Program-made: the position numbers and the translations under genes
Origin: Lachnospiraceae bacterium
GTDB lineage: Bacteria; Bacillota; Clostridia; Lachnospirales; Lachnospiraceae
Assembly (NCBI GenBank): GCA_017476665.1
Contig: JAFUZJ010000035.1
Span: forward strand, 1 to 50,594
DNA length: 50,594 nt
Reading direction: 5' to 3'
In this document: piece after piece, positions 30,435 to 34,892 of the stretch
Layout of the letters: the number at the start of each line of letters is the position of its first letter
Numbering within the stretch: the first letter of the stretch is position 1
The notes under the pieces: model-generated
Databases searched by the model: none
Told to the model about the DNA's origin: nothing
What the model saw: the letters and a program-made list of their open reading frames with translations, nothing else

Positions 30435-31937
30435 TTACATTCCCAGGAATTCCTTCACCGTATCCTGCATCTTGTCCACATCACACTGCTTGTCATGCAA
30501 CACAGGGGCAGTGCGAATCTCCTCGATGGCGTTCGGCACCTTCACGTTCGCCAGCCTGGAAAGCTCATCCACCAGCTCAAAATCCCCCATAGCGTCATAT
30601 TTCGCATCAATGGCATTCATCACGCTTCTGGTAAACTTAAACGGACTTGCGGTAGATGCGATCACCGTCTTCGCCGTATCACCGGTCTCCTTCCCATACT
30701 TCTGATAAACCGCCGACGCCACCGCCGTATGGGTATCAATCACATAGCCGCAGCTCTCATAAAGGCGTTTGATCTCCGCTGCAGTCTCCGCCTCACTGGC
30801 ATAGTTGCCGTAGAAGTCATCCAGCCCTTTCTTCATCTCATCCGTGATCTCATATTTGCCCTGACCGCCCAGCGCCGCCATCAATTCCGCATTTTTCTCT
30901 GGGTCATTGCCCGCGATGCGATAGATCAGACGCTCCAGATTGCTGGAGATCAGAATATCCATGGACGGGGAGGACGTCAGCATAAACTCACGGTTTCTGT
31001 CGTAGGTCCCGGTGCGGAAGAAATCATACAGCACCTTATTGTCATTGGAAGCGCAGATCAGTTTTTTGATGGGCAGTCCCATATTCTTTGCATAGAATGC
31101 AGCCAGAATATTACCGAAATTTCCGGTGGGAACCACCACATTGATCTGATCTCCGTCTGCGATCTTCCCCTCTGCCAACAGCTTTGCATACGCATACACA
31201 TAATAACAAATCTGCGGTACCAGCCGCCCGATATTAATGGAATTCGCTGAAGAGAACTGGAAGCCCTTCGCGTCCATCTCTTTTGCCAGCTCCTTATCGG
31301 AAAAGATCTTCTTCACACCGGTCTGTGCATCGTCAAAGTTTCCGTGAATGCCAACCACCAGTGTGTTGGCCCCCTTCTGTGTCACCATCTGTTTCTCCTG
31401 GATCGGGCTCACGCCGTTCTTCGGGTAAAACACAATGATTCGTGTGCCTTCTACTCCTGCAAATCCTGCCAGTGCAGCTTTTCCGGTGTCTCCGGATGTC
31501 GCCGTAAGGATCACGATCTCATTTTTAATCTGATTCTTTTTGGCAGAAGTGATCATCAGATGCGGCAGAATGGACAGTGCCATATCCTTGAACGCGATGG
31601 TTGCCCCATGGAACAGTTCAAGATAATATGCCCCTTCCGCTTCCACTAACGGCGCGATCACATCCGTATCAAATTTCTCATCATATGCTCTCTCGATACA
31701 GGTCTTCAGCTCCTCCTCCGTGAAATCCGTCAGATAAAGCTTCATCACCTCATAGGCTACCTGCTTATATTCCATCTTGGAAAGCTCTCTCAGACTCTTG
31801 TCCAACGCAGGAATATGATCCGGCACAAACAATCCGCCGTCATCGGAAAGTCCCTTCAAAATTGCCTGGGATGCCGTTACGCCGGAAAGCTTCCCGTTAT
31901 TCTCCCTGCTTCTGGTACTGTTATAGAATACTTCCAT
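30435..31937 (-). CDS. thrC: Threonine synthase
   Basis: This PLP enzyme turns O-phosphohomoserine into threonine. The 500-residue length is that of the long bacterial form. The N-terminus MEVFYNSTRSRENNGKLS is typical of this form, the cofactor Lys is at about residue 117 in HGATIAFKDMALS, and TATSGDTGKAALAGF and VVPTGNFGNILAAFYA bind phosphate and cofactor. AAGGAGAG precedes the start. No other thr gene is adjacent; its own promoter lies 50-75 nt upstream. Confidence 0.97.
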   Translation of the reverse strand: MEVFYNSTRSRENNGKLSGVTASQAILKGLSDDGGLFVPDHIPALDKSLRELSKMEYKQVAYEVMKLYLTDFTEEELKTCIERAYDEKFDTDVIAPLVEAEGAYYLELFHGATIAFKDMALSILPHLMITSAKKNQIKNEIVILTATSGDTGKAALAGFAGVEGTRIIVFYPKNGVSPIQEKQMVTQKGANTLVVGIHGNFDDAQTGVKKIFSDKELAKEMDAKGFQFSSANSINIGRLVPQICYYVYAYAKLLAEGKIADGDQINVVVPTGNFGNILAAFYAKNMGLPIKKLICASNDNKVLYDFFRTGTYDRNREFMLTSSPSMDILISSNLERLIYRIAGNDPEKNAELMAALGGQGKYEITDEMKKGLDDFYGNYASEAETAAEIKRLYESCGYVIDTHTAVASAVYQKYGKETGDTAKTVIASTASPFKFTRSVMNAIDAKYDAMGDFELVDELSRLANVKVPNAIEEIRTAPVLHDKQCDVDKMQDTVKEFLGM

Positions 31938-33255: not shown

Positions 33256-33912
33256 TTATTTAAAAAACTCGTGATCTCCCCATTCAAACAGATAGGTCAG
33301 GTGATTGTCAAACCATTTCATACTGCCTTGATCCGCATATTGCCTTGCGGCAAAATACAGCGCGCCCTCCGAAATATCCTCGCCCTGCATCGCACGCTCC
33401 ACCGCTCTCTTTGTCTCCTCGCTGATCTTCACCCTCCAGATTCTTCCGTTCGCCACCGGGGAAAACTGGTAAGTACCGTTCTCTCCCTGCAGGATCACAT
33501 CCCTGACATTGTCCGGAAATTTTTCGCTGGCCACGCGGTTCAACACCACATTTGCCACCAGCAGCCTCCCCTCTGCATCCTGATTGCCGGCTTCCGCTTC
33601 CACAATGCGCAGCAGGAGTTCATAATCTTCCTTGTTTCCCACTATAGCATTTCCGGGACGCTCCACGCGCTGCAGTTCCATGACCCGCTGGTCAGAGACA
33701 GCTGTGTCAATGATCCCTATGGCATGGGCAACCGTCACTGCTCCTCCTGCGGACTCCTGCTCTGTATCATGGTTCATTCCCTCTTTTTCCAACTTCAGAT
33801 CCAGAGTCTTGATCGCCAACTGTTTTTCCAACGCCGCCCCATCCACACAGATTGTTCCGAAGAGAAAGAGAAGGCTCATTAAGATCAAACCGCTGATTGC
33901 TTTTTTATACAT
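33256..33912 (-). CDS. Cell-wall hydrolase, SleB/CwlJ-like, exported
   Basis: The 218-residue protein has an N-terminal signal sequence or anchor (basic MYKK, hydrophobic residues 6-24), a spacer, and a C-terminal Hydrolase_2 domain (about 110-218) with LLRIVEAEAGNQDAEGRLLV, in which the first conserved Glu is the likely catalytic residue, and YQFSPV and ALYFAA segments. SleB is a germination-specific lytic transglycosylase, but relatives also act in vegetative cells, so a spore role is not certain. No peptidoglycan-binding domain is present. GGAGGA precedes the start. It is divergent from the AP2-like gene across a 125-bp gap. Confidence 0.9.
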   Translation of the reverse strand: MYKKAISGLILMSLLFLFGTICVDGAALEKQLAIKTLDLKLEKEGMNHDTEQESAGGAVTVAHAIGIIDTAVSDQRVMELQRVERPGNAIVGNKEDYELLLRIVEAEAGNQDAEGRLLVANVVLNRVASEKFPDNVRDVILQGENGTYQFSPVANGRIWRVKISEETKRAVERAMQGEDISEGALYFAARQYADQGSMKWFDNHLTYLFEWGDHEFFK

Positions 33913-33962
33913 ATGTTTGTCCTCCGATAATCATATGTATGCGGCTTGTCTTTTTTTTATGA

Positions 33963-33992
33963 TTGCTGTCCTTTGAGAAGTTATGATATAAT
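33963..33992 (+). promoter_or_regulatory. Promoter of the AP2/HNH-like gene
   Basis: TTGCTG (33963-33968), an 18-bp spacer and a perfect TATAAT (33987-33992) predict a start near 33999, leaving a leader of about 40 nt. Confidence 0.75.
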
Positions 33993-34037
33993 CACCTAAG
34001 GAAGCACGAGGCATTTTTAATTATGTGGGTGGGAAAA

Positions 34038-34892
34038 ATGCGCAAAAATATAATCTCCGATACAAAGAAAAAAAATCCTGTTCCCGATTCCGGCGGTCAC
34101 CCGCTTCCGGGCGTCTGCCCTTCCGTCAGAAAGGACGGAAGCGTTTATTTTCGCGCCTCTCTGACATACAAACGGAAACATATCAGTCTTGGAAGTTTTC
34201 CTACCGACCATGATGCCCATCTGGCCTATCTGGAAGGGCTGCGTCTGCTGAAGGACACCCGGATCACTCTGCTGGAATATGCGGACCACTCGCCGCTCGC
34301 TTTTGACAAATGGGTCTGTCTCATCAATTTCAGAGACAACGGCATCTATTTCGGCACACCGATCTATATCGGGCAAAAGCAGTTTTATTACTATCTGTCG
34401 CCGTCCAGAATTCTGAAGTTTGATCTGGATGATCTGTTTTATTATTCTTCCCACAAGATCATGTGTCGCGGCAATCACTATTTTGTTGCCGATTACGGCA
34501 TGCAGGTCAATCTGGTGACCCGCTACGGGATTAAAAATTATGCGGTGGAAGGCAGGGATTTTCGCTTTTTAAACGGCGATTCCTCGGATTTCCGCCGGGA
34601 GAACCTGGAGATTCTCAATCTGTACCACGGTGTCCAAAAAACAACAAAAAACGGGCAGCTTATTTTTACTGCCCGCATCCATATTCGGGGAAATGTCCTC
34701 ATCGGCAGATATTCTACCGAGGAGGAGGCCGCCATCGCTTACAACAAAGCGATCGATATCCTGAAAAAAAAAGGATGCCCCAAAAATTTTGTGCCGAATT
34801 ACATTGAAGGGATGTCGCCCAGCCGCTATGCCGATCTCTATACCGGCATCAAGATCTCCGACCGCATTCTTCAATACTACTTTTCCGCATAA
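34038..34892 (+). CDS. AP2-like / degenerate HNH / AP2 DNA-binding protein
   Basis: The 284-residue protein has two AP2-like DNA-binding modules. The first (about residues 20-72) reads SVRKDGSVYFRASLTYKRKH then SLGSF. The second (about 207-250) is a strong match: YHGVQKTTKNGQLIFTARIH, then IGRYSTEEEAAIAYNKAIDI. Between them about residues 140-200 resemble the HNH domain of HNH-AP2 homing endonucleases, ending LNGDSSDFRRENLEIL where the family has a D-H-x-N-G then N-R-x-N-L pattern; here the catalytic His is replaced (FRFLNG), so nuclease activity seems lost. It may be a regulator derived from a homing endonuclease. ATG at 34038 is chosen for GGTGGG 5 nt upstream; an ATG five codons earlier lacks a site. 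It converges on the GH25 gene with 16 bp overlap. Confidence 0.75.
   Translation: MRKNIISDTKKKNPVPDSGGHPLPGVCPSVRKDGSVYFRASLTYKRKHISLGSFPTDHDAHLAYLEGLRLLKDTRITLLEYADHSPLAFDKWVCLINFRDNGIYFGTPIYIGQKQFYYYLSPSRILKFDLDDLFYYSSHKIMCRGNHYFVADYGMQVNLVTRYGIKNYAVEGRDFRFLNGDSSDFRRENLEILNLYHGVQKTTKNGQLIFTARIHIRGNVLIGRYSTEEEAAIAYNKAIDILKKKGCPKNFVPNYIEGMSPSRYADLYTGIKISDRILQYYFSA

Follow-up and report, generated by a model that had tools for sequence, protein, structure and literature searches.

Domain organization

The window analyzed here is a whole stretch of 50,594 nucleotides from a Lachnospiraceae bacterium (contig JAFUZJ010000035.1), and the gene under study lies on its forward strand at 34038..34892. 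The gene encodes a protein of 284 amino acids that consists of an AP2 domain, an HNH-like core with replaced catalytic residues and another AP2 domain, an assignment whose basis includes full-length orthologs. An alternative ATG start is located at 34023 on the same strand, as are all segments described in this paragraph. AP2-1 spans residues 24-72 (34107..34253) and is followed by a conserved segment, residues 86-114 (34293..34379), which lies beyond the part of the protein that aligns by profile with nucleases from viral contigs. The HNH-like core covers residues 115-196 (34380..34625) and shows the highest conservation in the protein; it carries R176-F177 at the position of the catalytic Asp-His pair (34563..34568) and F185 at the position of the DNR-motif Asn (34590..34592). 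AP2-2, residues 197-246 (34626..34775), begins directly after the core, as in HNH-AP2 nucleases, and is followed by a helical C-terminal tail (34776..34877) in which N254, Y264 and Y268 are at least 99% conserved. Residue counts throughout refer to 117 distinct ortholog cores, with the deepest branch, family f2, included.

The AlphaFold model contains two AP2 folds (predicted local distance difference test score, pLDDT, 90), each with a three-stranded sheet and a helix, and the best structure matches are AP2. These matches are plant AP2 structures, and viral HNH or AP2/ERF proteins are also matched at E values of 2e-10 to 1e-9. The Pfam AP2 family PF00847 gives no match to the window protein at E<=10; it matches 8 of 44 orthologs at E<=1, the best at 2e-4. 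No LAGLIDADG or helix-turn-helix (HTH) domain appears in Pfam or NCBIfam scans. Within the segment of residues 86-114, K91, N97, Y104 and P108 are at least 99% conserved; residues 89-101 form a helix in the full model, and the segment forms strands if folded alone.

Replacement of the catalytic residues

The HNH-like core is compared with a profile of 15 intact HNH-AP2 proteins from viral contigs. Residues 117-244 of the window protein align with this profile in one stretch (hhalign 97.3%, E 2e-11), and the core of residues 115-196 alone scores 23.5 against it, compared with 17.4 for the best of 60 column shuffles. D72, H73 and N81, which are invariant in 15 of 15 viral-contig proteins, align with R176, F177 and F185. 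At position 177, that of the catalytic His, the orthologs have F in 115 cases and L and Q in one each, and none has His. Position 185 is occupied by F (93), L (12), Y (10) or M (2). The catalytic Asp-His pair and the DNR Asn are thus lost in all orthologs examined, and the framework around them is kept, with R186 and N189 invariant and N179 and D184 present in 109 of 117. The AP2, dead HNH, AP2 layout and the replaced His within a preserved HNH frame had both been proposed in a preliminary description made from the sequence alone, and both are confirmed by these comparisons.

Conservation, distribution and descent

Conservation, measured in the 117 cores as the frequency of the most common residue averaged over each region, is highest in the HNH-like core (0.74), followed by the segment of residues 86-114 (0.69), AP2-2 (0.64), AP2-1 (0.63) and the tail (0.58). 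Within AP2-1, the residues on one face of strands 2 and 3 (R39, S41, T43, H48, S50 and G52) are each 91-100% conserved, with a mean of 0.96 versus 0.78 at the remaining strand positions, an effect that is not seen in AP2-2 (0.62 versus 0.65). By analogy with plant AP2-DNA structures, this face of AP2-1 would read DNA, and its near-invariance suggests that most members recognize the same DNA sequence. Family f2 differs as a block at the face (R/K, Y, V/L/T, K/R, Y). Four f2 orthologs (L133, L134, L136 and L137) are about 340-375 amino acids long and, by eye, end in a third AP2-like module.

In the genus sample, 45 of 61 genomes carry the gene, with one match each. The family sample contains 164 carriers among 397 genomes, including one weak match (G124, E 9e-4); 158 of the 164 have a single match and six have two, although one of these six (G142) has one gene split in two pieces. 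Carriers in the order sample (111 of 392 genomes) belong to the window's own family, f1, and to f2, f4, f21, f22 and f24, the order being what we take to be the Lachnospirales. Positive genomes in the class sample (8 of 291) and the phylum sample (4 of 249) come from the own family only, so that the gene, which many gut bacteria of this order have in common, is carried by no sampled genome outside it in either set. Record titles, where shown, name Lachnospiraceae or Acetatifactor in nearly all of 43 rows. When the GH25 neighbor is used to probe for the loss locus in non-carriers, only partial matches are found in six genus genomes, the best in each at 37-43% identity. Split orthologs occur at L151 (G682) and L166 (G142) and are possibly recent pseudogenes or assembly errors.

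The gene tree, built from 51 rows, requires five changes of family label for six families, which is the minimum possible and is not reached in any of 200 shuffles. Families f2 and f24 are each separated from all other rows by a branch with 100/100 support. Both f1 and f22 need two label changes, and f4, f21, f22 and f24 are nested within f1 on unstarred branches. Constraining f1 to one clade is not rejected (p value of the approximately unbiased test, p-AU, 0.21), and the same constraint on f22 is borderline rejected (p-AU 0.040). Given this nesting and these tests, descent appears to be broadly, perhaps not strictly, vertical, which answers the question of vertical inheritance raised in the preliminary description with a reservation for f22. 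The ratio of nonsynonymous to synonymous substitution rates (dN/dS) lies in the range 0.02-0.14 for 11 of the 13 close pairs, with two pairs saturated and several dS values above 1, and where scorable it is comparable to that of the linked threonine synthase. By these measures the gene is a working host gene under purifying selection and no recent relic.

The mobile, patchy pattern expected of homing endonucleases is not seen: the gene is mostly single copy, its tree approximately follows taxonomy and its neighbors are chromosomal. A search of plasmid sequences returns no match. A phage origin of the present-day gene is rejected, the full-length or long matches in viral collections having leuCD- or thrC-like neighbors by eye. 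Three such records labeled as viral or phage (L126 from IMG/VR, MT837267.1 and MT836856.1, the last two being L131 and L132) carry the gene next to leuCD-like or thrC-like genes and are probably bacterial DNA in viral collections; four other viral-collection matches in the set with L126 are short AP2 matches only. The absence of any intron, intein or phage context, as described beforehand, is in keeping with these host-gene neighbors.

Genetic context

The gene shares a divergent intergenic region of 125 bp (33913..34037) with a gene for a Hydrolase_2 cell-wall hydrolase on the reverse strand (33256..33912), and a threonine synthase gene lies further away on the same reverse strand (30435..31937), both identified by Pfam on the window copy. 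Neighbor orientation can be judged in 79 of 85 loci, using mechanically called open reading frames of at least 100 amino acids. The upstream gene is on the opposite strand in 77 of 79 loci and the downstream gene in 71 of 77, and the gene therefore seems to be solitary and to have a promoter of its own. An extended -10 element, TGATATAAT, is located at 33984..33992 on the forward strand, and an extended -10 is present in 67 of 103 upstream regions compared with 13 in shuffles. A strong promoter had been proposed for the gene; the -35 element of the window copy is weak.

A Hydrolase_2 homolog is the immediate upstream neighbor in 47 of 79 loci. Of 85 loci, 59 contain a threonine synthase homolog, which is the immediate neighbor in 13 of 79. 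Further immediate neighbors, named by eye, are transketolase, GyrB/ParE-like, citrate synthase, glycyl-tRNA synthetase and AzlC-like genes. Regulation of one fixed neighbor is rejected as a function, since the immediate neighbors vary between families.

Motifs recovered by expectation maximization (EM) from the upstream regions correspond by eye mainly to coding sequence and to the promoter of the divergent hydrolase. A block resembling AAAAATATTTCT, with at least 13 of 17 matches to the seed, is found in 29 of 69 loci with a hydrolase homolog and in 2 of 35 without one; for this reason it is read as a hydrolase promoter and rejected as an operator. The window's own intergenic region lacks the block (10 of 17 matches). 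Upstream of Hydrolase_2 in relatives such as L011, L015 and L019, AAAAATATTTCT is accompanied by a CATA-type -10 that looks by eye like that of a sporulation sigma factor. A role as a sporulation regulator is rejected, as the gene has no positive link to the sporulation marker SpoIVA (TIGR02836, E<=1e-20), which is present in 257 of the 397 family genomes. With the weak match G124 left out, leaving 163 carriers, 95 genomes have both, 68 the gene only, 162 the marker only and 72 neither (odds ratio 0.62, p 0.026); because of the relatedness among the genomes, this p value is a guide only.

Proposed origin and alternative explanations

On balance, the protein is likely to derive from an HNH-AP2 homing endonuclease by domestication and now to serve the host as a DNA-binding protein, most likely a regulator of few long, asymmetric sites. 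The nuclease center would have been lost before the family spread through the order, by replacement of the Asp-His pair with a variable residue and F and of the Asn mostly with F, Y or L. The stretch from HNH to AP2 would have been shortened and a further AP2 domain placed at the N-terminus, leading to the present state of a mostly single-copy host gene inherited broadly vertically. In the predicted binding mode, one long asymmetric site is contacted in two places, where the three-stranded sheets of AP2-1 and AP2-2 enter the major groove, with the dead HNH core between the two domains acting as a rigid platform that may contact or bend the DNA. Binding at one or few chromosomal sites would then alter transcription, in trans, at one or few promoters. 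The preliminary description had also pictured a former selfish nuclease turned DNA-binding regulator, an interpretation that the present results largely support. The nuclease part of that picture is carried, at the level of sequence comparison, by the domain order, the catalytic residues replaced in the orthologs examined, the broadly vertical descent, the purifying selection and the host context. DNA binding is predicted from the modeled fold; we infer the length of the site, the timing of the catalytic loss and the regulatory outcome.

Several results weigh against this interpretation, and they bear on different parts of it. Motif EM on 104 non-redundant of the 163 upstream regions finds no operator or autoregulatory site, and no regulon has been found, which speaks against the regulatory outcome. 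The f22 clade test speaks against strictly vertical inheritance. For HNH descent, the profile probability is low when the middle part is taken alone, no HNH structure appears among the 50 Foldseek rows listed of 148 matches for the isolated middle (none at E<=0.001), and VIA-align of the isolated middle returns a single row, not an HNH structure. The case for an HNH ancestry of the middle thus comes from sequence profiles and from domain order, and it is moderate for that part taken alone. These fold and profile results would suit a tandem-AP2 DNA-binding protein whose middle domain is unrelated to HNH nucleases. We consider such a protein improbable, because the core outscores every column shuffle, directly precedes AP2-2 within one continuous alignment as in HNH-AP2 nucleases, and keeps the HNH frame residues; nor does any profile assign the middle to another fold, the outcome that had been named as counting against an HNH origin.

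A specific DNA binder that shapes or marks the chromosome, in nucleoid organization, replication or segregation, would agree with a mostly single-copy gene and with a long composite DNA-binding surface suited to few fixed sites. The variation of neighbors between families, which implies no regulated neighbor, and the GyrB/ParE-like genes adjoining the f24 gene point the same way. Such a role is nevertheless unlikely, though less so than an unrelated middle, as the gene is missing from 233 of 397 family-sample genomes and from 6 of 29 good genus-sample genomes and so seems dispensable. Continued activity as a homing endonuclease or nickase, with the catalytic residue moved elsewhere in the protein, is very improbable. 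Conserved His and Asp residues do exist elsewhere (H48, H139, H147, D129, D132 and D174), and His stands at position 176 in 3 of 117 orthologs; however, f2 reads Y, Y, Y, T, H at H139 and Y, Y, Y, Y, L at H147, and His near the motif is sporadic, with a maximum of 11 of 117 orthologs per column across columns 168-191, so that no shifted catalytic set of the kind considered in the preliminary description is found. The mostly single-copy, broadly vertical occurrence away from any mobile context also argues against activity. We give just as little credence to a protective role as a decoy, in which the dead nuclease would occupy the sites that active HNH-AP2 homing endonucleases target and thereby prevent their homing. 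The family would derive from such enzymes and might retain their binding mode, but no PADLOC defence model matches at E<=1, and the wide conservation of the protein, with an AP2-1 face that hardly varies, is unlike an arms race.

Relation to known systems

HNH-AP2 homing endonucleases are reportedly the subject of work by Magnani and by Wuitschick, both in 2004. According to sections of PMC5318435 and PMC10448857, they occur in ciliates, cyanobacteria and phages and have been proposed as the source of plant AP2/ERF factors; the 'IPA-HNH' proteins in the text of PMC10448857 are enzymes of this type. The window family shares with them the order of HNH then AP2, the continuous profile alignment and the retained framework of N, D, R and N. 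It differs in that the catalytic D, H and N are replaced, the HNH-AP2 stretch is shorter, an extra N-terminal AP2 domain is present (with the third AP2-like module in one family) and the gene is a host gene of broadly vertical descent. Plant AP2/ERF factors resemble the window protein in the AP2 fold, in having several AP2 domains per protein (as in WRI1) and in their proposed nuclease origin, whereas the window protein is bacterial, keeps the HNH shell and has no Pfam AP2 match. Nothing in the sequences compared shows one common domestication event for the two.

In sections of PMC3781837, the Gram-positive regulator WhiA is described as a host DNA-binding protein with a degenerate homing endonuclease domain that lacks metal-binding and catalytic residues, a domain whose role was called unknown in 2013. 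The window family similarly has a degenerate homing endonuclease part in a host protein predicted to be a DNA-binding regulator; it combines HNH with AP2, whereas WhiA combines LAGLIDADG with HTH and binds DNA mainly via HTH. As expected of a domesticated homing endonuclease of the WhiA-like kind, catalytic loss extends across the lineage, with vertical descent and purifying selection subject to the f22 reservation. CapR, the capsid repressor of the PLE phage satellite, is made from a homing endonuclease DNA-binding domain (sections of PMC10448857); its origin is a T5orf172 nuclease and it is satellite-borne, whereas the window family is a chromosomal gene of one order. The window family is the same logic as WhiA and CapR with different parts. 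No description of it was found in searches of an open-access library, in agreement with the earlier statement that no described function is known for such a stand-alone bacterial protein.

We see an even chance that the family is an order-wide group of bacterial transcription regulators descended, independently of plants, from an HNH-AP2 homing endonuclease, in which the dead shell is the most conserved part and AP2 domains have been gained (one family having a third AP2-like module and an altered AP2-1 face). The family would then represent, in living form, an intermediate stage on the route that has been proposed for plant AP2/ERF factors. Intermediates of the plant path are not at hand; here, a large bacterial family keeps the nuclease shell with catalysis lost, and each step by which a selfish nuclease becomes a DNA-binding protein of the host can be tested in it. 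The analysis also provides a concrete biochemical prediction for an uncharacterized gene that is common in Lachnospiraceae and present in relatives of the same order.
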